From: Saccharomonospora viridis DSM 43017 | Lineage (GTDB): Bacteria > Actinomycetota > Actinomycetes > Mycobacteriales > Pseudonocardiaceae | Direction of reading: 5' to 3' | Length of the DNA: 64,000 nucleotides | Assembly: GCF_000023865.1 (NCBI RefSeq) | Contig: NC_013159.1 | Coordinates: 372,001-436,000 of the forward strand | Shown here: in pieces, positions 14,481-63,096 of the stretch | Layout: the number at the start of each line of letters is the position of its first letter | How positions within the stretch are numbered: position 1 is the stretch's first letter | Position numbers and translations under genes: made by a program | Notes under the pieces: generated by a model | Told to the model about the DNA's origin: nothing | The model's input: only the letters and a program-made list of their open reading frames with translations | Databases searched by the model: none

Positions 14481-14502
14481 CGCATTTAGCCCGCGAAACG
14501 CG
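14481..14502. repeat. CGTTTAGC palindrome, degenerate copy
   Basis: CGCATTTAGC-CC-GCGAAACGCG: same layout as the consensus, with two mismatched pairs in the arms. Confidence 0.7.
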
Positions 14503-14520
14503 CCCGGCGCGGATGCGGAT

Positions 14521-14546
14521 ACCGCGTTTAGCGGGCTAAACGCGGT
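14521..14546. repeat. CGTTTAGC palindrome, perfect 12-bp arms
   Basis: ACCGCGTTTAGC, GG, GCTAAACGCGGT. Arms pair perfectly over 12 bp around a 2-base centre. The outer ACCG/CGGT extension recurs at 16966, 17008 and 59450. Confidence 0.9.
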
Positions 14547-14585
14547 CCGTCCGCGTCTCGCGGCGAGCGCTGTGCGCCAGCCGGT

Positions 14586-15734
14586 TCACATGTCGAGCAG
14601 GTCGCGGGTTTCTTCCACGTCGGTGCCCGAGCCGATGTCGCCCTTGTCGCCGATGTCCTTCAGGTCCGTGGTCTGGTCCACGAGCTTGCCGTAATGGTCG
14701 AGGACGGTTTTGCCTGCCTCGCCCGCGGTGTCGACCGTGCTCGTCGGATCGATACCGATGGTGGAGTTGAAGACCGCTCCGCCGCCCTTCTTCAGCGACT
14801 CGGTCACCGCGGTCTTCATCGCGCCGCTTCGGCCGACCTGCTCCACGACCTCCTTCACGTTGTCTCCGTAGTTCTTCGGTTCGACTCCGAGCTTCTCGCC
14901 GAGCTTGACCATCTTCGAGCCGAACTTCTTGAAGAACTCCAGGATCTTTTCCAGCAGCTTGCCCAGCTTTCCCATCTTGCTGGTGACACGTGAGAACGTG
15001 CTTGCCGCCTTCGCGACCGAAGCCGACATCGCCGCGGCGACTGAGGAACCGAAACTCACCACCGAGCTTGCCAGCGCGGGCACCCAGATCCAGATCAGCC
15101 ACGTGACGAACTCGGTGATGATCGCCTTGATGACCTCCTCGACGACCGTCATGATCATCGACGACATCTTCAGGATCTGGGCGACGCCACCCGCACTCGT
15201 GGCCACCCCCTCGATGCCTTTGGCGAAGTCCGCGAGAGCGTTGCGGGCGGCGTCACTGGCCGCGCCTTCCCAATCGGCGAGCGTCTCGTCGGCCACACGC
15301 ACGAACTCACCCGCGTACTCGACGAGCCCGTTGCCGATCGCCGCGAAGTCGTCGGAAGCGTCACTCAAAGCCGGACCGTCTCCGGACACCATGTGCAAAA
15401 GGTCCTGCAGTGGCGTGACGAGATGGAGCACGATGCTGATGCCGTTGTCCACCAGCCAACCCACAGGGTCGAGCACCGCCATGCCTGCTTCCATGGCACA
15501 CTCGGCGGTGAAACTGGCGGCGTCGGTGATCACACCACCGGCGTGCAACATGATGTCGGCGGCGTCGGGGTCCTCCGGCATTCCTTGCCAGATGTTGGTG
15601 ACGGTGTCGTAACCCTTGATCGCCTGCTTGGCACCGGGGACCTGTTCAGCAAGGCTCTTCGCCTTGTCCAGGAAGGAATCCTCGTTGTCGGCGTTCAGCT
15701 CGATGGAACCTGCGATGTCACTGACCTCGGTCAT
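14586..15734 (-). CDS. EspA-like WxG-containing type VII secretion substrate, array copy 2
   Basis: A protein of 382 aa. The ATG at 15734 has GGAAGGAG eight bases upstream and is preferred over an in-frame TTG at 15755. It shares the copy 1 and copy 3 block (DPVGWL, VTPLQD, MVSGDGPAL, a FAAIG-x-G helix), a WEG turn at about 155, a hydrophobic segment near 200-230 (FVTWLIWIWVPALASS), an Ala/Ser-rich stretch, and an acidic tail ending ETRDLLDM. The tail resembles that of copy 1. It lies 17 bases after its EspC-like partner. Predicted T7SS substrate or extracellular pore/scaffold component; function not demonstrated. Confidence 0.75.
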   Translation of the reverse strand: MTEVSDIAGSIELNADNEDSFLDKAKSLAEQVPGAKQAIKGYDTVTNIWQGMPEDPDAADIMLHAGGVITDAASFTAECAMEAGMAVLDPVGWLVDNGISIVLHLVTPLQDLLHMVSGDGPALSDASDDFAAIGNGLVEYAGEFVRVADETLADWEGAASDAARNALADFAKGIEGVATSAGGVAQILKMSSMIMTVVEEVIKAIITEFVTWLIWIWVPALASSVVSFGSSVAAAMSASVAKAASTFSRVTSKMGKLGKLLEKILEFFKKFGSKMVKLGEKLGVEPKNYGDNVKEVVEQVGRSGAMKTAVTESLKKGGGAVFNSTIGIDPTSTVDTAGEAGKTVLDHYGKLVDQTTDLKDIGDKGDIGSGTDVEETRDLLDM

Positions 15735-15751
15735 GAGTCTGCTCCTTCCGT

Positions 15752-16102
15752 TCAAGCCCCGGCCGGGCGGACCTCGTCGACCTTGTCGACTTCGATCTCG
15801 TAGTTACCGAGCTGAATGGCGCCCTGGTCATCGTTGCTCGCGTACAGCTCCGCGGCTTTGGTGAACTTCTCGCCGGTGTTGGTGAGCCCTTGCTTCATGC
15901 GGTCGAGAAGGTCGCGAAGTTGCCCGAGTGCTTCGGTGTAGGAGCTCTTGGTGGCCAGTCCGACGAGGCCCCACGATTCGTCACCGACGTCAGCGCGGTC
16001 CACCAGATCACTGAACGTGTCGGCTTGCGACTTGAAATCCTCCAGCGTGTCGCGGTATCGCCGCAGCGCCTCGACCTCGACTTTGAATCCGCCGTCCGGC
16101 AT
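15752..16102 (-). CDS. EspC-like small type VII secretion target, array copy 2
   Basis: A protein of 116 aa with AGGAGG before the ATG. Helical hairpin with the turn GDESWGLVG at about 46-54 and YASND near residue 90, matching YxxxD/E. It has an extra tail of about 20 residues (NYEIEVDKVDEVRPAGA) compared with copy 1. It precedes the EspA-like copy 2 and follows membrane protein copy 2, all leftward. Confidence 0.82.
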   Translation of the reverse strand: MPDGGFKVEVEALRRYRDTLEDFKSQADTFSDLVDRADVGDESWGLVGLATKSSYTEALGQLRDLLDRMKQGLTNTGEKFTKAAELYASNDDQGAIQLGNYEIEVDKVDEVRPAGA

Positions 16103-16170
16103 GGTTTGTCCTCCTCGGCAGTTTCCCCAGCGTCAGCCTTTGGACCTTCGCCGATCCTGTTCGGTTCCCT

Positions 16171-16926
16171 TCAGCGGGAGTGCGTCGCACGTATCTCCGG
16201 TGGGAGTCTGTCGAGCAGCTCGAGGATCGCGTCGACGGTTGGAATGATCTTGTCTGGATCCAGTCGAGAGCTCTTCATCACTTCAGTACGTATGACGCCC
16301 TTCTCGAGAATGATCGGGCGCAGGAAGTAGTCGCCGATCCGCTCGGCGATCCATGTGAGCAGTTCCAGGTCGACGACGGAGCGCGCGAATTCCTCGTCGT
16401 GCGCGACCACGACGATGCGGCGGTGGTGCCTGCCTACGGTGAGTTCGGGAATGATGTATTTGCGCAGGTTGAGGTCGTAGTTCGCGTTCGTTTCATTGCC
16501 GATCCAGAGGAACGGGCAAGGGGCGATGGGGATCTCGATGATGGCGTCGTAGTTGATTGCGTGTGAGTTCACCCCCACGGTGTGTCCGTGTCTTTCGAGC
16601 TCGAACGCGAGCACGTCATGCCCTCGGTGTTTGAACTCGACCGCGTAATCGAACGGCGCGTTGGGATAGATCTCCGGGTTGTGTGGGAAGTACCCGAACG
16701 ACGGCCGTGCCGGCTGGTGCTTGGCGTACTCGATGCCACCGACTTGGCGAGCGAACTCGTGGAGCCTGGACCGAAGTTCGTTCGTCTTCTTGTTCCGGGA
16801 TCCCACTATGAGGGGGATCAGGAGAACGGGGAGTATGAAGAGGAGCGCGAACAGGAGAAGCCCGGGATTGTCCATCAGTGCGGCTTTCGGTGTTTTCAGG
16901 TGATGCTGGCGTTGCCAGTAGACCAT
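16171..16926 (-). CDS. Membrane-anchored protein of unknown family, array copy 2
   Basis: A protein of 251 aa. A hydrophobic helix lies at about 21-43 (LLLFALLFILPVLLIPLIV), followed by a basic stretch and a soluble domain. The C-terminal pattern (ELLTWIAER, then VDAILELLDRLPPE) aligns with copies 1 and 3. The ATG at 16926 has a weak GAGGCGG; an internal ATG at 16875 has no better site. Here the gene comes before its small/large pair in transcription order, unlike copies 1 and 3, where it follows. Function unknown. Confidence 0.7.
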   Translation of the reverse strand: MVYWQRQHHLKTPKAALMDNPGLLLFALLFILPVLLIPLIVGSRNKKTNELRSRLHEFARQVGGIEYAKHQPARPSFGYFPHNPEIYPNAPFDYAVEFKHRGHDVLAFELERHGHTVGVNSHAINYDAIIEIPIAPCPFLWIGNETNANYDLNLRKYIIPELTVGRHHRRIVVVAHDEEFARSVVDLELLTWIAERIGDYFLRPIILEKGVIRTEVMKSSRLDPDKIIPTVDAILELLDRLPPEIRATHSR

Positions 16927-16965
16927 GCCGCCGCCTCGTGAAGGGCGGAAGTCCCGGAGCCCCTG

Positions 16966-16991
16966 ACCGCGTTTAGCGGGCTGAACGCGGT
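16966..16991. repeat. CGTTTAGC palindrome, 12-bp arms with one G-T wobble
   Basis: ACCGCGTTTAGC, GG, GCTGAACGCGGT. A single A-to-G change gives a wobble pair in the RNA hairpin. First of two copies in tandem between membrane protein copies 2 and 3. Confidence 0.85.
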
Positions 16992-17007
16992 TCGACCCGA
17001 CCTCCTG

Positions 17008-17033
17008 ACCGCGTTTAGCGGGCTGAATGCGGT
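17008..17033. repeat. CGTTTAGC palindrome, second tandem copy
   Basis: ACCGCGTTTAGC, GG, GCTGAATGCGGT. It carries the same A-to-G change as the copy 16 bases to its left and one more, suggesting local duplication. Both changes remain pairable as G-U in RNA. Confidence 0.82.
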
Positions 17034-17061
17034 TGGTCGGTCATCGCTGACGTTCGGTTGG

Positions 17062-17901
17062 TCATCCAGTGATGGTGCTCACCACACTGAAGACCAGGCT
17101 GACTAGCCAGAGGACGTAGGAACTGAACTCCATGCCGCGCGCGAAACGTGAGGGGTCGGGGTATTCCCGTTGAGGCAGCGTGGCGAGTGCGGCGGCGAAC
17201 TGGTGTTGTCCGGCGGCTGGTCCGCAGAGCCGGTCGAGGAACGCGACGAGTGCGTCGACGGTCAGGGTGACCGTTTCCTCTGTCGCGGGTCCGGAGGTGC
17301 TGTAGTGCAGGATGCCTCTTTCGACGTCGAACGAATACGGCAGGTGTTTCGTTCGACGGGCGAGCACTTCGATAGCCGGTAACGCGTTCGCCACGTATCC
17401 CGGCGCGTCGCTGCGGATACTCATCTGGCTCGCGTACGGCTCGGGCAGTGGAACCGGATGAAGACTCTCGTCCCAATCCGTGTTCGTCCGAAGTAACACC
17501 CGCATGGTGGGTGCTTTCAAGGCTTGGACTTCGACCCGATGTTCGATCCATTCCTGGAATAAAGTGTTCCCCGGGCGTCGTATGAAAATACTCGCTTCGG
17601 AGATGCGTACGCGCCGGCCGTATCTGAAGAACTCGGCGGCGTGCTCATATCGAACGTTCGAGAAAACTCTGAGACGCTGGAAGAAGTTCCCTCGAAGGAA
17701 ACTCACCAGCGGTGGATGAAGGCCGTTCGTCCAGGATCGGGCCTGGTTTTGCCCTTGGAAGACGTGTCCGCGGGTCATCATGGCGTAACGTCGAAAATCT
17801 TCGGCCCGTTTGGACACACGTCGCTGCGACGACCACCTCGGCCACAGCATGCAGAGGATGTGCAGGGTGAACAGAATGACGGCGAACCAGGACAGAGGCA
17901 T
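17062..17901 (-). CDS. Membrane-anchored protein of unknown family, array copy 3
   Basis: A protein of 279 aa with hydrophobic helices at both ends (about 4-22 and 255-275), so both termini are probably membrane-embedded, unlike copies 1 and 2. The central domain and the C-terminal pattern (ALPAIEVLARR, then VDALVAFLDRL) match the other copies. It follows the EspA-like copy 3 after a 114-base gap with a long hairpin. No known domain was recognised; association with T7SS substrates is inferred from threefold co-occurrence. Confidence 0.7.
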   Translation of the reverse strand: MPLSWFAVILFTLHILCMLWPRWSSQRRVSKRAEDFRRYAMMTRGHVFQGQNQARSWTNGLHPPLVSFLRGNFFQRLRVFSNVRYEHAAEFFRYGRRVRISEASIFIRRPGNTLFQEWIEHRVEVQALKAPTMRVLLRTNTDWDESLHPVPLPEPYASQMSIRSDAPGYVANALPAIEVLARRTKHLPYSFDVERGILHYSTSGPATEETVTLTVDALVAFLDRLCGPAAGQHQFAAALATLPQREYPDPSRFARGMEFSSYVLWLVSLVFSVVSTITG

Positions 17902-17964
17902 GACGGATTCCGTGGTCGAGGCCGGCAGGGGAGTGTCTATGAATGGCGTGCTGGGCGGCAGAAG

Positions 17965-18006
17965 TCACGGTGGCTCCTTAACATTTGGGAGAAGGAGCCA
18001 CCGTGA
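17965..18006 (-). promoter_or_regulatory. Long perfect hairpin between EspA-like copy 3 and membrane protein copy 3
   Basis: A 15-bp perfect inverted repeat (TCACGGTGGCTCCTT and its complement) with a 12-base loop lies 10 bases after the stop of the gene at 18016. There is no U-tract in either direction. It may lower expression of the downstream membrane protein or protect the upstream mRNA. Confidence 0.7.
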
Positions 18007-18015
18007 CGCGGCGGA

Positions 18016-19128
18016 TCAGAAGTTCAACTGATCAGATGTCTTGTATTTGGGCTGTTCCTCGCCGATCGAATCGTACTCCTGGGCGGTGTTGTAGCTTTCC
18101 AAATGGTCTTCCCAGTTGCCCATTTGTTCCGCGATGTTCTGCCCTGCGGTGTCGCGCATGCTCTTCCCGAAGCCCGTCGAGACGCGACTGCCGATCGCTC
18201 CCTGGTCGGAGTTGAGCCTGTCGGACCAACTGGTTTTTGCGCCGGTGTCTTCTGCGTTTTTGACTCGCTTCGTGGCGTTATCGACCCGAGTGCGTGTGCT
18301 GTCCATGGCCTCGCGGAAAGTTTTGCCTTGTTTGGCCAGCCACTCCTTGACCCGCACGAGTATGTTCTTGATTTTGTCGAGCAGTTTGCTGAGCCGACTC
18401 ACCTGTTGGCTCGCCCGCGTGGTGGTCTGTGCCACGCGTACACCGGTCGCGCTCGCCGCCGCGGCGGTCGACCCACCGAACGTGACGACTGAGGACGCGA
18501 GGGCCGGTACCCAGATCATGACCAACCACATGATCAGTTCGGTGAGCAGCGCCATGATGAAGTCCTCGATCACCTTCATGACGATGCTGGAGATCTGGAG
18601 CAGCTCGGCGATGTTCCCCGCCTCACCGGCGACCGCCTTGATGCCTTTGGCGAATTCGGCGAGCCTCTGTGCCGCCGCCTGTGCGGATTCCCCTTCCCAT
18701 TCGACCAGTGCCTCTACCGCTTCCTGGGCGAAATAGGAGCTGAACTCCTCGATGCCCTCCCCAATTGCGGCGAAGTTCGTCGCGGCGTTCTCCAGAGCGG
18801 GACCGTCGCCGCTCACCATGTGAACGAGATCCTGCAACGGTTGACAAATGGAGATCAGGAATTCGAGACCTCCGGTGAGCATGCTGCCGATCGGGTCCTG
18901 CATGATCCCGGAGGCGACACCCGAGCAGGAGGAGATGAAATCCTGTCCCGAGACGGCCAGATTGAAGATTTCATCGTGGCTCAAATCGCCGTCGGAGGCG
19001 GCGTTGAACGTTTGCTCGAAAAGTCCCTTGGCTTCACTGAACAGGCCTTGGTGAGGGATGGCCTGCATGACTTTCTCGCCGTACGACTGTTCGCTGCTGA
19101 GTTCGATACTCTCCAGTGGGTTGGACAT
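18016..19128 (-). CDS. EspA-like WxG-containing type VII secretion substrate, array copy 3
   Basis: A protein of 370 aa with GGGGAAAG before the ATG. It shares DPIG, LEFLIS, QPLQD, MVSGDGPAL and a FAAIGEG helix with the other copies, a WEG turn at about 144, and a hydrophobic segment (LIMWLVMIWVPALASS) at about 192-212. Then come an Ala/Thr stretch, a Lys/Arg-rich coiled region and a polar tail. It pairs with the small gene 31 bases upstream. The conserved first 215 residues against divergent tails suggest a common export module with variable C-termini. Confidence 0.75.
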   Translation of the reverse strand: MSNPLESIELSSEQSYGEKVMQAIPHQGLFSEAKGLFEQTFNAASDGDLSHDEIFNLAVSGQDFISSCSGVASGIMQDPIGSMLTGGLEFLISICQPLQDLVHMVSGDGPALENAATNFAAIGEGIEEFSSYFAQEAVEALVEWEGESAQAAAQRLAEFAKGIKAVAGEAGNIAELLQISSIVMKVIEDFIMALLTELIMWLVMIWVPALASSVVTFGGSTAAAASATGVRVAQTTTRASQQVSRLSKLLDKIKNILVRVKEWLAKQGKTFREAMDSTRTRVDNATKRVKNAEDTGAKTSWSDRLNSDQGAIGSRVSTGFGKSMRDTAGQNIAEQMGNWEDHLESYNTAQEYDSIGEEQPKYKTSDQLNF

Positions 19129-19159
19129 GAAAGCTTTCCCCTCCCCGTGCTCTTCGATT

Positions 19160-19501
19160 TCATGAAGTTATGTTCTTGATCTTCGCAGCGTTTATTCGCC
19201 TGGTGATTTCGACCAGTATGCGACGATTTTCCTCTTCTATTTCCCGGTATGCCCTGGTGGCGCTCATCATCTTGTCCGAAGCGGAATCCAGTCCGTCCGA
19301 CATGTCCTTCAGCAGATCCTTGAAGTCCCCGAGCATCTCGGTGTAGGACTGTTTCACGAAGAGCCCGACGATCCCCCATGACTCATCACTGACGTCCGCT
19401 TGGGCGACGAGATCGCGGACATGGTTGACCGACGACTTGTGCTCGGCCAACTTCTGTGAATACTTCTCCAGGACCTCGGGATTGATGAAGAATTTGCTCA
19501 C
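19160..19501 (-). CDS. EspC-like small type VII secretion target, array copy 3
   Basis: A protein of 113 aa starting at GTG 19501, which overlaps the stop of the upstream membrane-protein gene (GTGA) and has GGGGAAC upstream. Turn motif SDESWGIVG at about 40-48; YREIE near residue 85 fits YxxxD/E. It ends with a more basic helix than copies 1 and 2. Predicted exported partner of EspA-like copy 3. Confidence 0.8.
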   Translation of the reverse strand: MSKFFINPEVLEKYSQKLAEHKSSVNHVRDLVAQADVSDESWGIVGLFVKQSYTEMLGDFKDLLKDMSDGLDSASDKMMSATRAYREIEEENRRILVEITRRINAAKIKNITS

Positions 19502-20427
19502 GAATATGTTCCCCAGTTCTGTTTCGTCGGATAATTCCGGTTCATCGGATAATTGGGTGCGTGCACAGGTGCTCTGCCACTTCCGTTTCCACCATTGCGT
19601 TCACGTGCGGCCATCCACATGAGCACACCGCCGAGGACCCCTGTGACCGCGCCCGGGATCAGCAGCATCATCGCGTCGGTGTTGCCTGCGATCACCGGAT
19701 TGGGCCATAGCGGCGCGATGGAGATCCGCACGGTTTCACCTTCGGCCGGTAGCGGACTCTCGAACCAGCGTGCGTTTTCGATGTAATGGGTTTCGCCGTC
19801 TTCCGTGTAAGTCCCGCTGACGACATCTTGTTTCTGATGTCTGCTGCGGGGATGCACTCCACCGGTCCGTGGATTCGTTCTGTAGATCCTCTCCCCGCTT
19901 TCGGTGACGTAGAGGTCGACCTCCTTGGCGTAACCGAGGTAGTGGGAAGCGCCGTTGAACACAAGGTGGGCACTTCCAACGAGGGCGCACACGCCGAAAG
20001 CGCCGAGCAACATCCATGGCCAAACGGCTTTCACCCTGCCGCCGGCCCGTTGCCTGCGCAAACGGCCGAGGAGGGTGAAAAGGAAGATCAGCACGGCCGG
20101 CCCGATGACGAGCATCAGCAGGATCGTCAGCAGTCCACCCCAACCGACGGCGGCGACTCCCCAGGTCAAGGTGGTTGCGATGCCGAGTACCCAGGCGAGC
20201 GCCACGCATGTCGTGCCGATGCGGTGCTGGGTTTCCGGTGTCGGTCCGGAACGTGCCTGGGCCGCTGCGATGGCCGCAAGGGACAACGGCTGAGTGGGTA
20301 CGGTGTCGGGATCGTTCGGATCGGGTACCCCGGCGTTCCTGCGGAGTTTCGATCCGAGGGTGCCTAGACCCACTACTGCCAGGTAGCCGACGACGATGAA
20401 CGCCGGCAGTATGTCGCCGAACGTCAT
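19498..20427 (-). CDS. Multispanning membrane protein, DUF3592-like
   Basis: A protein of 309 aa with hydrophobic helices at about 8-25, 75-95, 98-120, 140-160 and 250-272. Between the last two lies an extracytoplasmic domain of about 90 residues with a VVSGTYTEDGETHY stretch and a GETVRISIAP motif, the DUF3592-like beta-rich layout. Translation is coupled to the small substrate downstream by a 4-base overlap. Position between the YbaB-like gene and the substrate pair suggests a role in the same export process, but this is inference. Confidence 0.7.
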   Translation of the reverse strand: MTFGDILPAFIVVGYLAVVGLGTLGSKLRRNAGVPDPNDPDTVPTQPLSLAAIAAAQARSGPTPETQHRIGTTCVALAWVLGIATTLTWGVAAVGWGGLLTILLMLVIGPAVLIFLFTLLGRLRRQRAGGRVKAVWPWMLLGAFGVCALVGSAHLVFNGASHYLGYAKEVDLYVTESGERIYRTNPRTGGVHPRSRHQKQDVVSGTYTEDGETHYIENARWFESPLPAEGETVRISIAPLWPNPVIAGNTDAMMLLIPGAVTGVLGGVLMWMAARERNGGNGSGRAPVHAPNYPMNRNYPTKQNWGTYS

Positions 20428-20514
20428 GTTCCCCCCGTTTCGTACCGCCGATGACGGTGTTCCGTCAGCTCTCGCCCGCTGTTGTCAGCTGTCGGCGGTG
20501 GTCGACGGCCGAAG

Positions 20515-21102
20515 TCATCGATGGTCGTCGTTGTTGAAGAGGTTCTGCAGGAACTCGTCGCCGGCCGAGCCGCCCGACGGTGCCGGAGGTGGTGGGGGGC
20601 TCTGCTGCTCCTGATCGCTCCCCAGGAAGTCCTGGTGGGAGTAGTCCTCGTGATATTCCTCTTCCGGGCGGAGGGGCGTCTGTCGGATGGGCCGCTCCTG
20701 CTCCATCCGCTCCCGAAGCTCTTGGGGAGAGGTGCCGAACAGCTGGGCTTGGGTCTCCAGCACCTGATCGGTGACGTTCAGTTGGCCCCCCATGTGGTCG
20801 TCGACGATCGCGGCCTGCTTGCGCGCCGCTTCGGCCACCGCTTCCTGGATGGTCGACATGAGTGCGGCGGACAGTGCCTGCGGCTGCTGGGAGAGGGCCT
20901 TGTCCGTCAGCTGGATGTCCTTGATGGCGCCACCCGGTCCGGCCACGATGGTGATGCTGCGATCGGCGTTCGATGCGGTGGCCTCGAGCTCCGCTATCTC
21001 GCTTTGCATCCGCTCGACGTTCGCGAGCTGGTCATCGACTTTCTTGATCTTCGACTGGAACCGCTCGAACTGCGCGAGGAGCCGCTCGAACTCCGCTGAC
21101 AC
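20515..21102 (-). CDS. YbaB/EbfC-family DNA-binding-like protein with Pro/acidic tail
   Basis: A protein of 195 aa. The GTG at 21102 is chosen because GGAGG lies 7 bases before it. The first 105 residues form the YbaB/EbfC fold: a long N-terminal helix, a central beta sheet (SITIVAGPGGAIKDIQLTDKAL) and a C-terminal helix. A tail of about 80 residues, acidic and proline-rich (QQSPPPPPAPSGG), ends NNDDHR. YbaB-like genes commonly accompany EspC/EspA-type genes in actinobacteria. It is the first gene of the leftward array, so it may be a nucleoid-type regulator or a chaperone for the substrates. Confidence 0.75.
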   Translation of the reverse strand: MSAEFERLLAQFERFQSKIKKVDDQLANVERMQSEIAELEATASNADRSITIVAGPGGAIKDIQLTDKALSQQPQALSAALMSTIQEAVAEAARKQAAIVDDHMGGQLNVTDQVLETQAQLFGTSPQELRERMEQERPIRQTPLRPEEEYHEDYSHQDFLGSDQEQQSPPPPPAPSGGSAGDEFLQNLFNNDDHR

Positions 21103-21508
21103 AAGGACCTCCGTAACTACAACTACTCTGCTCAACCGCGTGGGCACGGTCAGTGCCCAATCATGAACCACAAGAATTCGCGTATGTGACCGGTTCGGGT
21201 AGAATGGCTAAAACAAAGTCACCTGCCCACGCACCCGTGCAGGTCGTAGTAGACCCCCGATGTGGTAGCGGTGAGCGTGGGCGGGTATCTTTGACGACCG
21301 TGCCCGGCACGGCTGTCGGGCCCTCCGTGTGCCTTTAGGTCACGGCTGGGCGCTTTCGGCGCCTGTCCGCGGTCGGGTCAGGCGGAGTTCCACGGCAATC
21401 CCGATGGGAAGTTGACGGATCGAACGATCCGGACACGGGCCGACACGCCCGACCGCGGGGACCGGGGAGACAACGTAGAGCTAGTAGACGCAACAGAAGG
21501 CTGGTCCA
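21103..21508. other. 406-base divergent region between the T7SS substrate array and rpsL
   Basis: Must hold the rightward promoter of the str operon and the leftward promoter of the array. A -10-like TAGAAT lies at 21200-21205 with only a poor -35 (TTCGCG, 17 bases away). A small CCGTGC-CCG-GCACGG hairpin is at 21298-21312. No small gene or RNA was recognised. Confidence 0.4.
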
Positions 21509-36201: not shown

Positions 36202-36223
36202 TGCGTTTAGCAGGCTGATCGTG
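36202..36223. repeat. CGTTTAGC palindrome, degenerate copy
   Basis: TGCGTTTAGC-AG-GCTGATCGTG: the left arm is intact, the right arm has two changes. Immediately followed by a good copy. Confidence 0.65.
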
Positions 36224-36226: not shown

Positions 36227-36260
36227 CCGTTACACGTTTAGCCCGCTGAACGTGTAACGG
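36227..36260. repeat. CGTTTAGC palindrome with 16-base arms
   Basis: CCGTTACACGTTTAGC, centre CC, GCTGAACGTGTAACGG. The longest arms in the window; a single A-to-G change leaves a G-U pair. The outer CCGTTACA is unique to this copy yet fully self-complementary. Confidence 0.88.
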
Positions 36261-38340: not shown

Positions 38341-39161
38341 ATTCTACGGCTTCAGTGTTCAATATGTTTCGACGGCGACGCATGATCGAGATCAAGACGC
38401 CCGGTGAGTTGGATGCGATGCGGGCGGCGGGTCTCGTAGTCGCGCGTACGTTGAGGCGTGTGGCTGAGGCGGCACGTCCAGGTGTCAGTACCGCGGAGCT
38501 CGACCAGCTGGCCGAGGAGACGATTCGGGAAGCCGGCGCGGTGCCCTCGTTCAAGGGATATCACGGCTTTCCCGCATCGATCTGCGCGTCGGTGAACGAG
38601 CAGATCGTGCACGGCATCCCGGCCAAGAAGACGGTGCTCGCAGAAGGTGACCTGCTGTCGGTCGACTGCGGTGCGATCCTCGACGGCTGGCACGGCGACT
38701 CGGCGATGACCATCGAGATCGGCGAGGTATCCGAACGTGACCGGGCGTTGTCCGCCGCGACGAGGGCCGCGATGGTCGCGGGTATTGAAGCGGCCGTGCC
38801 CAATGCCCGGTTGACCGACATCTCGCATGCGATCGAGTCCGCGGCGCGTCGGGCGAGTAGCGAGGACGGCATCGAATACGGGATGGTGGCCGAGTACGGC
38901 GGTCATGGCATCGGACGCGAGATGCACATGGAGCCGTTCCTGCCGAACGTCGGTAAACCGGGTAAGGGACCGAAGCTGGCTGTCGGGATGACGTTGGCTA
39001 TCGAACCCATGCTGACGGCGGGATCCGGGGAGACTGTGGAGCTCGACGACGGTTGGACGGTGATCACCGCCGACGGTTCCCGAGCTGCACATTGGGAACA
39101 CACGGTCGCTATCACGGAGGATGGTCCGTGGGTGCTGACGGCCCCCGAAGACGACGTTTAG
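38337..39161 (+). CDS. map: Methionine aminopeptidase, type I
   Basis: A protein of 274 aa from the GTG at 38337 that overlaps the adk stop; ATGs at 38364 and 38382 are alternatives without a clear ribosome site. Metal ligands are visible: two Asp ([16 protein letters not shown]), His ([13 protein letters not shown]), Glu (AIEPM) and Glu ([10 protein letters not shown]). It removes N-terminal Met from new proteins. The stop codon TAG is the TAG of a CGTTTAGC palindrome that begins in the last codons. Confidence 0.93.
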
Positions 39162-39173
39162 CCGGCTAAACGT
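39154..39173. repeat. CGTTTAGC palindrome overlapping the map stop codon
   Basis: ACGTTTAGC-CG-GCTAAACGT, a perfect palindrome even at its centre. The TAG at 39159-39161 terminates map. Confidence 0.9.
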
Positions 39174-39194: not shown

Positions 39195-39216
39195 CACGTT
39201 TAGCGGGCTAAACGTG
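39195..39216. repeat. CGTTTAGC palindrome between map and infA
   Basis: CACGTTTAGC-GG-GCTAAACGTG with perfect 10-bp arms, 21 bases after the preceding copy. Confidence 0.9.
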
Positions 39217-43463: not shown

Positions 43464-44366
43464 TTGCAGGACGGGCCCGCTACTTCCAACGGGGAGGGCG
43501 GGCCCGTTCGTCTCCGCATCGACCTGAGTTACGACGGCACGGACTTCTCAGGATGGGCGCGCCAGCCGGGACGTCGCACGGTTCAAGGCGTGCTTGAGGA
43601 TGCCCTGGCCAAGCAGCCCCCAGGAGCCTCGATAGCCGGCCCAGTAGTGGTAGCAGGCCGTACCGACGCAGGTGTCCACGCGATCGGCCAAGTCGTTCAC
43701 GTGGACGTGACGCGTTTAGCGGGCGAAACGCGTTCCCGGATGCCGATTTCATCGGATGGGCTCCCGGACCTTGATTGGGCACGTTACCGCTTGAACCGCG
43801 TTTTGCCGGCAGATGTGCGTGTCCTCAGCATTCGCCGGGCCCCTGCGGGATTCGATGCGCGCTTTTCGGCTGTCAAACGTCATTACCGGTATCAGGTGTC
43901 GGATGCCCCTTGGGGAGTCAGCCCGCTGCGGAGGCGGGACACATTGGCTTGGCCGCGGCCTTTGTCTGTTGACGCGATGAACGAGGCAGCATCCTCGCTA
44001 TTGGGGCTGCACGATTTCGCTGCGTTCTGCAAGCGACGAGAGGGAGCCACCACCATTCGTGAGCTCATGGAGCTCCGATGGTGCCGCGTAGACGAATATG
44101 AACTGCACCTTTCTGTGTCCGCAGATGCGTTCTGCCATTCGATGGTGCGTAGCCTGGTCGGTGCTCTCCTTTGGGTCGGCGATGGTCGGCGTGATGTCGG
44201 TTGGCCGTTGGAAGTCCTGCGAAGCCGACAACGAAGCAGTGTTGTCGCGCCCGCGCACGGATTGACTTTGGTCAAAGTCGACTACCCGCCGGACGACGAG
44301 CTCGCGTCACGTGCGGAGAAGACGCGCAACATCCGTGACGAGTCCGAATCCTTCCAAAGTGACTGA
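43464..44366 (+). CDS. truA: tRNA pseudouridine synthase A
   Basis: A protein of 300 aa that modifies positions 38-40 of tRNA anticodon arms. Catalytic Asp in [28 protein letters not shown] at the N-terminus. TTG 43464 is the only start found upstream of the conserved region and is placed 11 bases after rplQ. Its first codons contain a 10-bp hairpin (ACGGGCCCGC at 43471, GCGGGCCCGT at 43498) that could also be the rplQ terminator. A CGTTTAGC palindrome lies in frame at 43710-43733, encoding TRLAGETR, where other TruA proteins are shorter. The 3' end overlaps the convergent gene at 44282 by 85 bases. Confidence 0.94.
43710..43733. repeat. CGTTTAGC palindrome inside truA
   Basis: ACGCGTTTAGC-GG-GCGAAACGCGT with one mismatch. 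It is read in frame as T-R-L-A-G-E-T-R within TruA. Confidence 0.85.
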
Positions 44367-45386: not shown

Positions 45387-45416
45387 AGGGCGCGTTTAGC
45401 AGGCTAAACGCGCCCT
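45387..45416. repeat. CGTTTAGC palindrome with perfect 14-bp arms
   Basis: AGGGCGCGTTTAGC, AG, GCTAAACGCGCCCT. Located 15 bases after the stop of the leftward gene at 45432 and preceded by AAAA on the plus strand, so on the minus strand the stem is followed by TTTT and could terminate that transcript. Confidence 0.92.
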
Positions 45417-45431: not shown

Positions 45432-46154
45432 TTAGTCGCCTCGACGAATCGGGCCGAGGATCTGCTTTTCCTTGGGGGTGGTGACGAGCCGGAGTGGACG
45501 CCACAAGTTGCGTCCCAGCGCCACGATCTGGTCGTCCTTCAAGGTCGTCAACTGCCGCATCATTTGCGGTGGAAGGCGCCAGATACGGGCTGCCAACTCC
45601 GCTTGCCCTTGCGGCAGTCGCTGCATCAGGACAAGATCAGCCGCGTTGGCCAACGCGGCCGCTTGCGGATGCAGATACGGCAGCACGTACACCGTCGTTT
45701 GCCACGGCGACCTCGGTGGGAACAAATCCTGCGGTGTGGGTCCCCCGTCGAGGACGACAAGCAGCGGCGCATCCTCGGACGGACGCGGCAACTCAACCGG
45801 CGACAGCCGACGGATCTGCACCAAAGGCGACGGCTGTCCATTCGGCTGCTGCCCCGCCGCATTCGACAGCACATGCCAAGCCGTTGGTCTTCCTGTCGAG
45901 ATGACGACCCAAGCGCCAACGGCCATCGCGCGCATGGCCACCTGGCGCGACAGATACAGACCGCCGACGAGGACGATCCTCGTCGGAGTCGCCCGCAGGG
46001 CAGACACCGTCAGCGGCTCACCCTGCAGACCCGAACCGAGAACGATCCCGCCTCGATCGCCGGACGGACTGATCGCATCGAGTAAGGCCGGGTCGACCAC
46101 AAACTCCGGGGCCACTCCCAGTGCCTTGTTGACGTCGTGCACTCGTGCGCTCAT
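45432..46154 (-). CDS. Uncharacterised protein translationally coupled to eccE
   Basis: A protein of 240 aa. Its ATG overlaps the eccE stop by 4 bases (ATGA), a strong sign of joint function with the ESX machinery. No signal peptide or membrane helix is seen. The order of hydrophobic strands (RIVLVGGLYL, VGAWVVISTG, APLLVVLDGG) and a C-terminal ADLVLMQRL/Arg-rich segment recall the core of a RecA/FtsK-like ATPase, but no Walker A motif is visible, so this is only a fold guess. It has no counterpart that I know of in the mycobacterial ESX-4 locus. Confidence 0.7.
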   Translation of the reverse strand: MSARVHDVNKALGVAPEFVVDPALLDAISPSGDRGGIVLGSGLQGEPLTVSALRATPTRIVLVGGLYLSRQVAMRAMAVGAWVVISTGRPTAWHVLSNAAGQQPNGQPSPLVQIRRLSPVELPRPSEDAPLLVVLDGGPTPQDLFPPRSPWQTTVYVLPYLHPQAAALANAADLVLMQRLPQGQAELAARIWRLPPQMMRQLTTLKDDQIVALGRNLWRPLRLVTTPKEKQILGPIRRGD

Positions 46155-49885: not shown

Positions 49886-49903
49886 CGTTTAGCGGGCTAA
49901 ACG
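49886..49903. repeat. CGTTTAGC palindrome, eccB-mycP gap copy 1
   Basis: CGTTTAGC-GG-GCTAAACG, perfect 8-bp core; outer bases do not pair. Confidence 0.88.
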
Positions 49904-49993: not shown

Positions 49994-50015
49994 AGCGTTT
50001 AGCCCGCTAAACGCT
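49994..50015. repeat. CGTTTAGC palindrome, eccB-mycP gap copy 2
   Basis: AGCGTTTAGC-CC-GCTAAACGCT with perfect 10-bp arms and a CC centre, opposite in orientation to its two neighbours. Confidence 0.9.
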
Positions 50016-50037: not shown

Positions 50038-50055
50038 CGTTTAGCGGGCTAAACG
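50038..50055. repeat. CGTTTAGC palindrome, eccB-mycP gap copy 3
   Basis: CGTTTAGC-GG-GCTAAACG, 8 bases before the mycP stop codon. Confidence 0.88.
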
Positions 50056-57442: not shown

Positions 57443-59440
57443 GTGACACTGCGGGTGGCGGTGGACTTCGGGACATCGAGCACCTGTGTCGTCGCTTCGG
57501 TGAACGGTCGTGAACCACAGGTCGTGGTTGTGGATGGGCAGCCGATCATGCCGTCCGCCGTTTACGCGGCGCGGGACGGCACGCTGTTCGTGGGCCAGGA
57601 GGCCGAACGGCAAGCCGCTGTCGATCCCTCGCGATTCGAACCGCATCCGAAACGTCGGATAGACGAGGGTGAACTCCTCCTCGGAGACACGGTGCTCACC
57701 GTCGTGGACGCCATGCGCGCTGTGTTGCAGCGTGCGGTGTCCGAGGCGCGCAGACTCGCGGGTAACGCCGAGGTTTCGCTGCTGGTACTGACGCATCCCG
57801 CCGACTGGGGTGCGGTTCGCACGCGGTTGCTGCGGCAGGCGGCCGGGCAGCTGGCGTACGAGGTGGCGTTGGTGCCCGAGCCGGTGGCGGCGGCGGTGTT
57901 CCACGCCGCGACGTTCACCCCCAACGATCTGAACCAGGAACGCACGGTCGAGTTCAGCGGTAATCCGGGCGACACGGTGGCTGTTTTGGACCTCGGTGGT
58001 GGCACCATCGACGTCAGCGTCGTCCGGCGATCGCAGGCCGGTGAGCGCGCCGAGTACGAGGTACTCGCCACGCGAGGTGACCCGGGATTCGGGGGCGCGG
58101 ACATAGACCAGGCCCTTTTGGAACACGTCGGTTCCTTGGTGTCGAAGGCGGACCCCGAGGCGTGGGAACAACTCGTCCAGGGACGTGAGTTGGCGGATCG
58201 CCGGCGCAGAAGGGTGCTGTGGCAGGACGTGCGTGGCGCCAAGGAAACTCTGTCGCGGCACGCGTACACCGACGTGCCCATGCCACCGCCTTTCGCGGAC
58301 GCCCACGTCACGCGCGAGGATTTGGAACAGCTCATCAGGACTCCGCTGGGGCGGGCTGCCGAGTTGACCAAAGTCACCGTCGAGGCGGCCGGGCTCCGTC
58401 CCCGGCAACTCACGGCGATCTTCCTGGTCGGTGGGTCGAGTCGGATCCCGCTGGTGTCGCGGCTCGTGCATGAGCGCACCGGCGTCGTTCCGACCACGTT
58501 GGACCAGCCGGAGACCGTGGTGGCACGTGGTGCTCTTCGTGCGGTGGAGCTGCTCCCGGACCGTACCGGGGTGCTACCGGGCACCATGGGGGCACGTTTA
58601 GCGGGCAAATCGATGTCACTACCGGCGGATCACAGGACTGAGGTGGTGACGCGTCCGAAGCCGTCGACACCGCGTGGGACCGGACCGTGGGGTGCGGGTC
58701 AGATGTCGATGCCCGCACCGGGGGCGCAGCGGGCGCTCGGTGGGAACCGTCCGCCGGTCTACCCCGTGTCTCACGGTATGCCGTCGCCACAACGTGGTTT
58801 TCCGGTATCGCCGTCGCCGTCGGGACAGCCGTACACGCCTTCGCCTATGGCGGCGTCTCAACACCCGGACCACTCCGGTCGGCCGCAACGATCGGGAGCC
58901 CGCATACGCATGGTCCTGATCGCCGTAGCCGTCGTGGTGTTGGTGGCGGCGGTGGCGGCAGTGACGTTGTTCATTTCCTCCGATGGGGACAAGGTCGAAA
59001 CCCAAGGGCACTTGTACGCGCAGTACTCGTACAAGTTCGTCGCACCCAAGGATTGGGTCCAGACCGGTGACAACGTCGAAGCGCGGCAGGTCGTCGTCAA
59101 GCCTCGAGAGGCTCAGGCCAGCACCGACGACGACCTGGTGGTGGTGCAGGAGTTCGTCTTGTCGTACGACGGTGGTGTCCATCGCGAACGTTTAGCGGAC
59201 GAACTGCGCGAGCAGACGAGCGCGAACCCCGATGTCTACACGGACTTCTCGGAGCATTACGAGTACGCGGGTCACGACGTGGTCCATTACCGGGAGAACA
59301 AGCCCGCGGCCACTGTGCACTGGTACGTGTTGGCGCACGGCACGGCACAGGTGAGTGTCGGTTGCCAGGAAGCGAAGCTGCGGGAGCGTGTGCGCGCGGC
59401 GTGCGAACAGATCGTCCGCACGCTCGAGTTCACCAACTGA
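57443..59440 (+). CDS. Hsp70-like ATPase with membrane helix and exported domain (Rv3446c-type T7SS-associated protein)
   Basis: A protein of 665 aa. Residues 1-375 form an actin/Hsp70-type nucleotide-binding domain: phosphate 1 VDFGTSST, phosphate 2 LDLGGGTID, adenosine motif VGGSSRIP. A Pro/Gly/Ser-rich linker (about 385-485) leads to one membrane helix (about 490-512) and an exported domain of about 150 residues ending RTLEFTN. No Hsp70 substrate domain is present. This is the layout of the type VII secretion-associated family typified by Rv3446c, and its position between eccC and the WXG100 pair is the same as in Mycobacterium. A CGTTTAGC copy lies in frame at 58595 and a possible one at 59189. 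Confidence 0.88.
   Translation: MTLRVAVDFGTSSTCVVASVNGREPQVVVVDGQPIMPSAVYAARDGTLFVGQEAERQAAVDPSRFEPHPKRRIDEGELLLGDTVLTVVDAMRAVLQRAVSEARRLAGNAEVSLLVLTHPADWGAVRTRLLRQAAGQLAYEVALVPEPVAAAVFHAATFTPNDLNQERTVEFSGNPGDTVAVLDLGGGTIDVSVVRRSQAGERAEYEVLATRGDPGFGGADIDQALLEHVGSLVSKADPEAWEQLVQGRELADRRRRRVLWQDVRGAKETLSRHAYTDVPMPPPFADAHVTREDLEQLIRTPLGRAAELTKVTVEAAGLRPRQLTAIFLVGGSSRIPLVSRLVHERTGVVPTTLDQPETVVARGALRAVELLPDRTGVLPGTMGARLAGKSMSLPADHRTEVVTRPKPSTPRGTGPWGAGQMSMPAPGAQRALGGNRPPVYPVSHGMPSPQRGFPVSPSPSGQPYTPSPMAASQHPDHSGRPQRSGARIRMVLIAVAVVVLVAAVAAVTLFISSDGDKVETQGHLYAQYSYKFVAPKDWVQTGDNVEARQVVVKPREAQASTDDDLVVVQEFVLSYDGGVHRERLADELREQTSANPDVYTDFSEHYEYAGHDVVHYRENKPAATVHWYVLAHGTAQVSVGCQEAKLRERVRAACEQIVRTLEFTN
58595..58612. 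repeat. CGTTTAGC palindrome relic inside the Hsp70-like gene
   Basis: CGTTTAGC-GG-GCAAATCG: left arm intact, right arm altered. Encodes RLAGKS at the start of the disordered linker. Confidence 0.6.
59189..59206. repeat. Possible half copy of the CGTTTAGC palindrome in the Hsp70-like gene
   Basis: CGTTTAGC-GG-ACGAACTG encodes RLADEL. Only the left arm matches; could be chance. Confidence 0.3.
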
Positions 59441-59449: not shown

Positions 59450-59475
59450 ACCGCGTTTAGCAGGCCAAACGCGGT
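59450..59475. repeat. CGTTTAGC palindrome after the Hsp70-like gene
   Basis: ACCGCGTTTAGC-AG-GCCAAACGCGGT, 12-bp arms with one mismatch, 10 bases after the stop codon and before the WXG100 pair. Confidence 0.88.
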
Positions 59476-60350: not shown

Positions 60351-60362
60351 GGGATTCTCGGT

Positions 60363-60869
60363 TCAGTGCGGTGCGCCGACTTCGTATTCGGGTTCGTTGT
60401 TGAGAATGCGGATCTTCACGGTCTTCGATTCGCCGGCGATGTCGACGGTGCAGTTGAACGTGTGCCCGGCGGCGATCTTCTGGTCAGCGGGGCAGCTGAC
60501 GTTGCTGACGTCGTGCTCGCCGTAACTGTCCTGGAGCACCGTGGCGACGCCTTCGTGCAGCGACTCCTGGTCGAGCACTTCGTCTGTGAACATCCCGCTG
60601 AACCACGCCGCGGCGCCGCCTGCGGCCGCCAACACCACGACCACGACAGCGCTGATGATCCACGGTTTACGTGACTTGCCACGTTTAGCGGGCGAATCGT
60701 CGTCGAACGCGCCGAACCCGCCGTACTCCGACGAGAACGAGCCGCCGAAACCCGTACCCGTCGGTTGAGGTGGTGTCATGGGCTGGGGGTATTGCTGCTG
60801 AGGGAGTGGCCCACTGTTCTGTTCGTGCGGTTGCCACCACTGGTGCGGTTGGCTAGGCGGCTGTGTCAT
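60363..60869 (-). CDS. DUF4333 domain membrane protein
   Basis: A protein of 168 aa: Pro/Gln-rich cytoplasmic N-terminus (1-60), one membrane helix (about 71-92), and an exported domain of about 75 residues with a Cys pair (VSCPADQKIAAGHTFNC) of the DUF4333 type. Such proteins are common in actinobacteria and of unknown function. A CGTTTAGC copy is read antisense, in frame, as SPAKRG just before the membrane helix. Convergent with the esx operon. Confidence 0.85.
   Translation of the reverse strand: MTQPPSQPHQWWQPHEQNSGPLPQQQYPQPMTPPQPTGTGFGGSFSSEYGGFGAFDDDSPAKRGKSRKPWIISAVVVVVLAAAGGAAAWFSGMFTDEVLDQESLHEGVATVLQDSYGEHDVSNVSCPADQKIAAGHTFNCTVDIAGESKTVKIRILNNEPEYEVGAPH
60681..60700. repeat. CGTTTAGC palindrome inside the DUF4333 gene
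   Basis: ACGTTTAGC-GG-GCGAATCGT with two changes in the right arm. In the gene's strand it encodes D-S-P-A-K-R-G in the disordered N-terminal region. Confidence 0.7.
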
Positions 60870-60908
60870 CGGTTTCCCCTGCGTGTTCGTCCGACCGGTG
60901 CGGGCTGT

Positions 60909-61796
60909 TCACTTGCGTTCGCTCGTGATCTCGGCCATTCCTTCATAGAAGGCGTCTACCTCCTCCTCGGTGGTGAGTTCGGTCACCTCGTCGGAAGAGG
61001 GCACGGCGGGGATCTCGTGCTCGGTCGGCGGTTCGTGCACCTGGTAGTGCTGTTTGATCTCGACTTCGTTGCCGTCCGCGGCCAGAAGGCCGTTCATCTC
61101 GATCTCTTTCAGATCACCTTCGGGGTCGAGCACGATTCGCGTGTCGATCACCTGGTCGAGCAGTGATTCGCTGATCTCTTCCAGCAGCCAGTCCGGCAGG
61201 ACGATGATGCGTTCCTCCAGGAACGTGCGCAGCGAGACGTCGATGGTGAGTTCCGTGCTGCCGTCGGCAAGGCTTTTCGCCGTCTTGTCCATCTCGTCGT
61301 TCTTCATGGAACTGTTGACGGCGTTGAGGATCTTGCAGACGGTGGCGTAGCCGCCCCAGAAGCAGATGTCGAGTCCTTCTCCGGTGTACGGCAGTGACAC
61401 CCACGGTGTGGGAGCCAGTTCGGCGTATTCAGGGCCGAGCAGGACGTATTCGACATCACTGCCCGCGGGGAGGAGGTAGTCCCGGTAGTCGGAGGAGTAG
61501 CGGTTCGAGTGGTTCTTGAAGAACCGAGTGGGGGGATTGCCGACCTGGATGGCCGTCACCGTGGTGTCGGACTTCAGCTCGCCCACGCGCATGAATGACC
61601 GGAGCGTGCTTTTGTGTGGTTCGTCGTTATCGAGGTCATCGGCGACTCGTTCGAGCGTGGAGGAGAACTTAGCGCCGACATACTTGGCGACGTCGTCACC
61701 GTTCGGAATCGGTTTACCCACCCGTCCGGTCGTGCATCCAGCAGCTAATACTACGCTGGCGACCAGAACGGCGACTCTCGGTAGCCACTTTCTCAT
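60909..61796 (-). CDS. Secreted lipoprotein of unknown function
   Basis: A protein of 295 aa from ATG 61796 (AAGGGG upstream). Lipoprotein signal peptide MRKWLPRVAVLVASVVLAAGC with lipobox LAAGC at 17-21. The mature part has two cysteines in a CFWGGYATVC stretch, a LPDWLLEE region and an acidic C-terminus. No family recognised. It follows the ESX locus and points towards the DUF4333 gene, 40 bases away on the same strand, so the two may share a transcript. Confidence 0.78.
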   Translation of the reverse strand: MRKWLPRVAVLVASVVLAAGCTTGRVGKPIPNGDDVAKYVGAKFSSTLERVADDLDNDEPHKSTLRSFMRVGELKSDTTVTAIQVGNPPTRFFKNHSNRYSSDYRDYLLPAGSDVEYVLLGPEYAELAPTPWVSLPYTGEGLDICFWGGYATVCKILNAVNSSMKNDEMDKTAKSLADGSTELTIDVSLRTFLEERIIVLPDWLLEEISESLLDQVIDTRIVLDPEGDLKEIEMNGLLAADGNEVEIKQHYQVHEPPTEHEIPAVPSSDEVTELTTEEEVDAFYEGMAEITSERK

Positions 61797-61983
61797 TGTG
61801 TCCAGCCCCTTGGGTGTCATGTCGGCGTGGGCTGTGGGAGAGACTAGTATGTCGCGCAGTGTGGACCCCCCGGGTTCACCCTCTTCCCGGCGACCAGGTA
61901 TCTTCACTTGTTGTTGTGCGCGCACGAGCGGCACGCGCCAAGCCCGCATGGACCCATAAGCAAGTTGACGATGAGGTAGACCC

Positions 61984-62436
61984 TTGCCCACGTACAGCCC
62001 TAAGCCCGGCGATGTCACTCGTGCCTGGCACGTGATTGACGCCGAGAATGTCGTGCTCGGCCGGCTCGCGACCGAGGTCGCCACGCTGCTGCGCGGCAAG
62101 CACAAGCCCATCTATGCCCCGCACGTGGACACCGGTGACTTCGTCATCATCGTCAATGCAGACAAGGTGGCGCTCACCGGCAACAAGCGTGAGCAGAAGC
62201 TCGCGTACCGTCACAGCGGCTATCCCGGTGGTCTGCGTAAGCGTTCTTACGGCGAGCTGCTTGAGACCCGCCCGGAGCGACTGGTCGAGAAGGTCGTGAA
62301 GGGCATGCTGCCGAAGAACAAGCTGGGCCGCGCGCAGGCGAAGAAGCTCAAGGTCTACGCCGGCCCGGATCACCCGCATGCCGCGCAGAAGCCCCAGCCA
62401 CACGAGATCACCAAGATCGCTCAGGTGTCCCAGTGA
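61984..62436 (+). CDS. rplM: 50S ribosomal protein L13
   Basis: A protein of 150 aa starting at TTG with GATGAGG upstream ([15 protein letters not shown]). Contains [13 protein letters not shown] and [11 protein letters not shown]. Overlaps rpsI by 4 bases, the standard rplM-rpsI pair. Confidence 0.96.
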
Positions 62437-62921
62437 GTGAGGAACAGTCTGTGACCAGCACCGAGACCGAGGCCGCTTACGACGCGGTCGTGACCAGCGA
62501 GACGCCCGCCGCCCCGGCGCCGTCTCGGGCTGCCGGGGGTACCGCGCAGACGGTGGGCCGTCGTAAGGAGGCGGTCGTCCGGGTGCGCATGGTTCCCGGC
62601 ACCGGCGAGTTCAGGTTGAACGGCAAGAGCCTCGAGCAGTACTTCCCGAACAAGGTTCACCAGCAGCTGATCCGTGAGCCGCTGGTCACCGTCGAGAAGG
62701 CCGAGTCGTTCGACGTCCACGCCCGCCTGCACGGCGGTGGTATCTCGGGTCAAGCAGGTGCGCTGCGGCTTGCGATCGCACGTGCATTGGCCGAGATCGA
62801 CAGCGATGACCGTCCTGCGCTGAAGAAGGCAGGCTTCCTCACGCGTGACGCTCGCGCGACCGAGCGTAAGAAGTACGGTCTGAAGAAGGCCCGTAAGGCC
62901 CCGCAGTACAGCAAGCGCTGA
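62433..62921 (+). CDS. rpsI: 30S ribosomal protein S9
   Basis: A protein of 162 aa starting at GTG. The first 38 residues are an Ala/Thr/Glu-rich extension; the core starts at [11 protein letters not shown] and ends [12 protein letters not shown], the tail that touches P-site tRNA. Followed by a strong terminator. Confidence 0.97.
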
Positions 62922-62932
62922 CCTGGCTCATT

Positions 62933-62971
62933 CCAAGCGCCCGCCCGTTTTCGGGGTGGGCGCTTGGTTTG
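62933..62971 (+). terminator. Terminator after rpsI
   Basis: CCAAGCGCCCGCC pairs with GGTGGGCGCTTGG (one G-U) around a short loop, followed by TTTGTCTGT. Confidence 0.82.
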
Positions 62972-62995
62972 TCTGTGGCTCGTGTGTCGATGCGC

Positions 62996-63015
62996 ACGTT
63001 TAGCGGGCTAAACGT
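62996..63015. repeat. CGTTTAGC palindrome between rpsI and glmM, copy 1
   Basis: ACGTTTAGC-GG-GCTAAACGT, perfect 9-bp arms. A decayed right half (GCCTGCTCAACGTGGT) follows near 63043. Confidence 0.9.
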
Positions 63016-63076
63016 TGTCCGATGCATCTGGGATCGCATCCGGCCTGCTCAACGTGGTGTGAGCACTTCAGTGGCC

Positions 63077-63096
63077 ACGTTCAGCCCGCTAAACGT
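63077..63096. repeat. CGTTTAGC palindrome between rpsI and glmM, copy 2
   Basis: ACGTTCAGC-CC-GCTAAACGT; a single change on the left arm, CC centre. Confidence 0.86.

Follow-up and report, generated by a model that had tools for sequence, protein, structure and literature searches.

Arrays of short DNA sites confined to one region of a chromosome are rare, and those that have been described, such as parS and matS, have revealed systems for chromosome segregation and folding. The parS consensus TGTTTCACGTGAAACA, with its half-site TGTTTCAC, is located near oriC. Repeated sites of other kinds include the repetitive extragenic palindromes (REP) and REPIN elements, intergenic imperfect palindromes that often form inverted pairs and are accompanied by a RAYT gene, and the stoperators of mycobacteriophage L5, many dispersed repressor sites, mostly intergenic, that extend over tens of kb. 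In the Ter macrodomain of Escherichia coli, the 13-bp matS site is described as occurring 23 times in 800 kb (PMC3330122). Here, a family of near-palindromic sites was followed from a 64,000-nucleotide stretch of the Saccharomonospora viridis chromosome (positions 372001-436000, referred to as the window) through its relatives. As in the matS/MatP system, a short site is repeated about two dozen times and is confined to one chromosomal domain; in contrast to matS, these regional sites occur in another phylum, near ribosomal genes 0.4-0.9 Mb from parB, and they are denser and longer, with a polar centre and an arrangement in helically phased pairs.

In the window, the core CGTTTAGCNNGCTAAACG with up to three mismatches is found at 18 places, compared with a mean of 0.12 in 100 shuffled sequences, none of which reached 18. 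These are exactly the 18 copies listed in an earlier interpretation of the same DNA made without database searches (the sequence-only reading), the starts given there being those of the extended palindromes, 0-8 bp to the left of the core. Each site is a near-palindrome of about 30 bases in which two inward-facing half-sites, approximately ACCGCGTTTAGC in S. viridis, surround a polar GCGGGC centre, for an overall geometry of about 11 + 6 + 11 bp. The statement that the family has no named counterpart holds in the searches made; in the open-access literature (subscription papers and preprints lying outside that coverage), no description of it was found.

The same reading had called the family dispersed, a term that is misleading at the scale of the genome. 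A scan of the 4,308,349-bp single contig of S. viridis for the core with up to two mismatches returned 30 sites, 28 of which fall within the 75 kb between 386,483 and 461,197, the others forming one pair at 3,850,640 and 3,850,681; the pattern read backwards matched once in the genome. The block includes rpoBC, the genes from rpsL to the alpha operon, truA, the ESX-4 genes eccB, mycP, eccD and eccC, rplM-rpsI, glmM and groESL, and continues beyond them (beyond the genes matched in Pfam, these names are what we take them to be from conserved gene order). In other Saccharomonospora the block is syntenic as far as it was fetched, the copies again lie in one block, and the same intergenic gaps are often occupied. 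All 20 matches to a relaxed core lie within 83 kb in the genome with handle G003 (S. viridis itself being G000), and a looser core gives 11 of 11 matches at 586-758 kb (171 kb) in G041, 10 of 12 at 665-812 kb (about 150 kb) in G070, and 10 of 12 at 4,576-4,725 kb (about 150 kb) in G102. Across genomes the size of the block ranges from 75 to 280 kb. The confinement to one domain that typifies matS/MatP is found here as well, with the exceptions of the S. viridis pair and a few single sites in the Amycolatopsis genome G110.

Two further approaches recovered the family. From 154 sites in seven genomes a 28-bp matrix was derived. Over 400 kb of control S. viridis DNA it reached 9 bits nowhere (one match at 8 bits), and in the blocks of 13 genomes, including six outside the training set, it gave 23-45 matches of at least 12 bits per 100 kb; the site family is also present in G084 and G042. 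The blocks of G109, G023 and G048 gave no matrix matches, nor was the family found in G079 or the 40 kb of G020. When near-palindromes were clustered with no preset motif, the family came out as the most numerous group in G000 (19 members), G008, G004, G041, G110, G047, G045 and G067, and also in G010, there with only five members. In G009 it had four members, as many as other groups did; clustering did not recover it in G001, and runs of N obscured the result in G003 and G070. The corresponding groups in the 400 kb of control S. viridis DNA had at most 7 members, of a codon-like GTCGAC/CGTCGTC type, versus 19 in the block.

Measured by hand, with chromosomes taken as circular, the distance of the block from parB is about 0.39-0.47 Mb in S. 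viridis, 0.43-0.49 Mb in G003, 0.59-0.76 Mb in G041, 0.67-0.82 Mb in G070 and 0.67-0.95 Mb in G110. The regional sites resemble those of the parS/ParB system in being palindromic and clustered in one region, with a loosely similar half-site, but differ from them in a centre that is 2 bp longer and in their location; parS-like sites of S. viridis (up to two mismatches to TGTTTCACGTGAAACA) lie near the chromosome end, separate from the regional sites. The first 20 kb contained no site of at least 9 bits in S. viridis, nor of at least 11 bits in G110, and in G045 an isolated member of the family lies between dnaA and dnaN, the likely origin (C1:1435486; L283, local position 9487). Relative to the middle of eccC, the median site position is +4 to +7 kb in G000, G008, G041 and G070, all with wide coverage, and -5 kb in G047; centring of the block on eccC (ESX-4) was considered and rejected, as it fails for Amycolatopsis G110, in which the block is lopsided about this gene. 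Among the genes beside outlying sites, Pfam comparison found no shared neighbour.

The spacing of neighbouring sites provides evidence of a different kind. The distribution of distances of 24-80 bp has peaks at 32, 42-43 and 52-53 bp. A spacing was scored as on grid when it differed from a multiple of 10.5 by at most 1.5 bp; by this measure 51 of 69 are on grid in Saccharomonospora and 60 of 64 in G041, G070, G047, G084 and G067, which represent four other genera, and none of 1000 random sets per group was as periodic as the observed spacings. In G045, 32 bp accounts for 23 of 36 spacings. In individual gaps the spacing differs between genomes. The map-infA pair is spaced at 42 bp in S. viridis and G041, 53 bp in G002 by way of an 11-bp indel, 52 bp in G003 and G004, and 63 bp in G008; in genomes where this gap was assigned by distance from rpoA or by gene order, the spacing is 53 bp in G009, 43 bp in G047 and G067, 42 bp in G084, 32 bp in G070 and 36-37 bp in Amycolatopsis. 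In the eccB-mycP pair of G002, two compensating 3-bp indels preserve a spacing of 42 bp. Phased spacings together with compensating indels point to proteins that touch each other on duplex DNA, and it is probable, judging from the sequences, that the sites are protein-bound sites on double-stranded DNA. The L5 stoperators likewise comprise many sites over tens of kb, mostly between genes; the regional sites differ from them in being chromosomal, near-palindromic and paired in phase. A different dispersed palindrome, CCGCGTTCTGGATGCAGAACGCGG, occurs at 8 places on contigs of G074, a draft genome of another genus (for example, C308:5293 and 5335), with two of the copies 42 bp apart in inverted order.

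A hairpin in RNA or single-stranded DNA had been proposed in the sequence-only reading on the grounds that the outer arms appeared to covary. In 492 sites from 21 region sets, with right halves swapped 300 times within the same set, Watson-Crick pairing at the variable core positions and in the outer arms differed little from that of the swapped halves (z between -4.4 and 2.6 across 27 positions, the centre excepted). Because pairing is no better than that of swapped halves, the self-complementarity of the sites follows from their composition as two copies of one half-site consensus. Covariation of the arms was not confirmed, and the hairpin proposal drawn from it fails, as spacings moreover track the DNA helix.

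Nor are the two central bases free. They are GG/CC in 484 of 517 sites and GC/CG in only 8, which gives each site a direction. That direction shows no preference with respect to replication (147 sites with, 154 against) or to gene strand (39 opposite, 29 same). Between close relatives the centre may be reversed (GG/CC, AG/CT) with flanks still aligned, as at G110 8433578 compared with G042 887682 and at G000 411197 and 417393 compared with G002, which suggests inversion or conversion mediated by a hairpin. The arms of about 11 bp around a polar 6-bp centre, together with these inversions, recall the attachment sites of a tyrosine or serine recombinase; as dozens of sites in both orientations are found among essential genes of conserved order, such a role is very improbable.

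The relationship of the sites to genes is best seen from the 18 sites of the window, which are as follows:

14483..14500, minus strand: site 1, centre CC, 42 bp before site 2
14525..14542, plus strand: site 2, centre GG
16970..16987, plus strand: site 3, centre GG, 42 bp before site 4
17012..17029, plus strand: site 4, centre GG
36204..36221, plus strand: site 5, centre AG, rplO-secY gap, 31 bp before site 6
36235..36252, minus strand: site 6, centre CC, rplO-secY gap
39155..39172, strand given as ".": site 7, centre CG, map-infA gap, overlapping the end of map, 42 bp before site 8
39197..39214, plus strand: site 8, centre GG, map-infA gap
43713..43730, plus strand: site 9, centre GG, inside truA, matched in relatives
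45393..45410, plus strand: site 10, centre AG, gap after truA, in relatives the site most like a long hairpin
49886..49903, plus strand: site 11, centre GG, eccB-mycP convergent gap
49996..50013, minus strand: site 12, centre CC, eccB-mycP gap, 42 bp before site 13
50038..50055, plus strand: site 13, centre GG, eccB-mycP gap
58595..58612, plus strand: site 14, centre GG, inside an Hsp70-like gene
59454..59471, plus strand: site 15, centre AG, gap separating the Hsp70-like gene from a WXG100 gene
60682..60699, plus strand: site 16, centre GG, inside a DUF4333 gene
62997..63014, plus strand: site 17, centre GG, gap after rpsI
63078..63095, minus strand: site 18, centre CC, gap after rpsI

Most sites are indeed between genes, as had been noted, the exceptions being those that begin at 43713 (truA), 58595 (Hsp70-like gene) and 60682 (DUF4333 gene). 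The rplO-secY gap is occupied likewise in G008, G010, G003 and G004. In 11 genomes, site density per kb is 1.34 in codirectional gaps, 1.40 in divergent gaps and 2.11 in convergent gaps, compared with 0.08 within genes, so that intergenic density is 16-26 times genic density whatever the direction of the genes; these counts use genes called by a rough script based on GC content at third codon positions, drop genes lacking support in three genomes, and set aside 114 sites in gaps longer than 1.5 kb. Within codirectional gaps, 58 of 101 sites are nearer the stop. As gaps of all types contain sites, placement appears to follow intergenic position within the block and not the transcription unit.

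This pattern bears on two explanations based on gene expression. The first is that the sites are operators for a transcription regulator of growth genes (ribosome, RNA polymerase, secretion, chaperonin), in keeping with a block rich in such genes and with the strong intergenic preference. Convergent gaps are, however, at least as dense as divergent ones, some sites are inside genes, and the fusA-tuf and tuf-rpsJ gaps of S. viridis, where promoters are expected, contain none; moreover, as only one pair lies outside the S. viridis block, growth genes elsewhere are without sites (a conclusion drawn from the scan, the loci not having been checked singly). Operators are thus an unlikely explanation. 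The second, preferred in the sequence-only reading, is that the sites act in RNA as terminators, attenuators or processing signals. Strong self-complementarity and the high density of convergent gaps are in its favour, as is the site after truA, where long perfect arms differ in sequence among G003, G004, G008 and G010, the sole place at which the arms look compensated. Use of divergent and codirectional gaps as well as convergent ones, and of coding positions, speaks against a processing or termination signal, as do the lack of a clear pairing excess, the helical phasing, the restriction to one block, and the lack of any Rfam match at gathering score in the window. An RNA role for the family is decidedly improbable; the single site after truA may serve as a terminator in addition to another function.

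Comparison of close relatives indicates that the sites are retained. In pairs of close genomes, 15 of 15, 22 of 25, 21 of 23, 12 of 14, 14 of 14, 8 of 10 and 8 of 9 sites were kept, and in all seven comparisons identity was higher in the sites (0.79-0.90) than in their flanks (0.68-0.80). For G000 and G002, five of the 15 sites are on contigs of G002 that scarcely differ from S. viridis; on the diverged contigs, 10 of 10 were kept. The evidence from orthologous gaps is taken from individually checked gaps only, as automatic pair mapping contained false pairings. The almost identical stretches of G002, a metagenome-assembled genome (MAG), are on C32 and C92 (L127, L130), compared with an average of 89% identity for aligned MAG DNA; mixture or recent transfer is a possible cause.

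The main competing explanation, that of a locally spreading repeat, must be considered in light of these data. A REP/REPIN-like palindrome, or one like a miniature inverted-repeat transposable element, might be copied mainly to nearby positions, perhaps by template switching, then kept by descent and homogenised within each genome. Copy type is indeed homogenised per species, site numbers within an array vary, and S. viridis also has sites between genes for which the 15 region sets compared contain no homologues (gap 71-72). Many close pairs are inverted, CC then GG (21 of 37 at 42 bp and 5 of 22 at 43 bp), and the flips of the centre suggest events mediated by hairpins. The regional sites thus resemble REP and REPIN elements as intergenic imperfect palindromes, often in inverted pairs. 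They differ in their restriction to one block, in spacings quantised to helical turns with spacer sequences that are, by eye, unlike between pairs, and in the scarcity of an associated transposase: Y1/RAYT genes were found in neither S. viridis nor 11 of the 13 site-bearing genomes searched, being present in G003 and G008. Conservation above that of the flanks and the lack of remnants in siteless relatives also count against local copying. A REP-like mobile palindrome, one of the suggestions of the sequence-only reading, is accordingly disfavoured, and a spreading repeat of any of these types is unlikely, if less so than operators or RNA signals.

The distribution of the family across related organisms is patchy. 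A search of 390 genomes of the bacterial family with the S. viridis consensus (up to two mismatches, both strands summed, so that near-perfect sites count twice) found matches in 70 genomes and at least five matches in 48 (hand count), in 9 of 46 genera. In Amycolatopsis (g32), 28 of 80 genomes have at least five matches and the rest 0-2; in g31, one of four genomes is positive. Location in the block was verified in g1, g31, g32, g35, g37, g57 and g60, and not in g34 and g55. As G006 and G011 have diverged copies, a genome without matches to the S. viridis pattern does not necessarily lack the family. A tree built from 11 block proteins groups two siteless genomes, G109 and G079, with the site-bearing G041 and G067 (support 0.99), and G109 has the same genes. 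No decayed remnants were found in siteless relatives (80 kb of G109, 60 kb of G079, 40 kb of G020). Patchy presence without remnants could result from loss of a dedicated binding protein, although other histories are possible. In a broad contig scan, nearly all of the matches listed were from Amycolatopsis, Saccharomonospora and Prauserella, and in a viral collection the exact core was found in only two stretches. The matches listed also include one exact match each in a Thermoguttaceae MAG and in an uncultured Kangiella.

The explanation that best accommodates these observations is one of phased dimer sites that mark or compact a block of the chromosome, and it is held tentatively, with somewhat less than even confidence. 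A dimer would bind two inward-facing half-sites on double-stranded DNA, and neighbouring dimers, usually 3, 4 or 5 turns apart in a shared helical register, would contact each other and bind cooperatively. Sites would be placed by chromosomal position and not by gene function, in one block of 75-280 kb about 0.4-0.9 Mb from parB, which the bound protein may mark or compact by bridging sites or forming loops between them, much as MatP acts on matS in the terminus region of E. coli. What the sequences show is the family of sites, its restriction to the block, its phasing and retention, and its patchy occurrence among clades; the protein, its cooperativity and the organisation of the domain are inferred. 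Regional organisation in the matS/MatP manner is suggested by the combination of block restriction, indifference to gene direction and phasing; taken by itself, it is conceivable, with the balance of judgment leaning slightly against it. Of the three roles put forward in the sequence-only reading, that of a chromosome-organising site is the best that remains. Whether the array represents a new kind of actinobacterial chromosome-domain system is rather doubtful. In such a system a predicted dimeric protein would define a ribosomal/ESX-4 domain on one replichore through dozens of phased polar sites. The array would resemble matS but lie away from both terminus and origin; it would be ancient in the bacterial family, and several clades would have lost it as a whole.

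Several observations weigh against the interpretation as phased dimer sites. The domain function is deduced from position only. One S. viridis pair lies outside the block, about 4 Mb along the record, and the main block of Amycolatopsis G110, which extends at least from 8,368 to 8,647 kb (about 280 kb), is accompanied by isolated sites or pairs at 6.89, 7.02 and 8.26 Mb, at distances of 0.1 and 1.3-1.5 Mb. The phasing is not uniform, and spacings from related genomes are non-independent counts: Amycolatopsis spacings have a period of 10.4 bp with an offset of about 4 bp (37, 46, 56, 67), and 2 of 39 are on grid; G045 includes a 45-bp class, with 25 of 36 on grid; and the map-infA spacing of G010 is 48 bp. 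The orientation of the centre flips at some orthologous sites. Finally, no binding protein was recognised: the genes in the block stretches compared, so far as they match a known family, do not convincingly separate site-bearing from siteless genomes, and a ParB paralogue as partner was rejected, as none tracks the sites in 15 genomes. Each genome in the ParB_N search, 10 site-bearing and 5 siteless, has one canonical parB, with a further match in G008 only. A GDSL lipase gene of the block that seemed to track the sites was likewise rejected, having no homologue in the S. viridis block.

In several actinobacterial genera the array nonetheless marks a conserved block of genes for ribosomal proteins, RNA polymerase and chaperonin, and close relatives lack it. 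This natural plus/minus comparison could be used for finding the predicted binding protein and for testing the effect of regional DNA marking.

Two other features of the window concern its genes. At 45432-46154 on the minus strand, a 240-codon open frame with no Pfam or NCBIfam match is 85-94% identical in most relatives that have it, and could be a shadow frame. Between rpoC and rpsL, a cluster of WXG100/PPE-like and EspC-like genes at 12816-21171 is variable among relatives.

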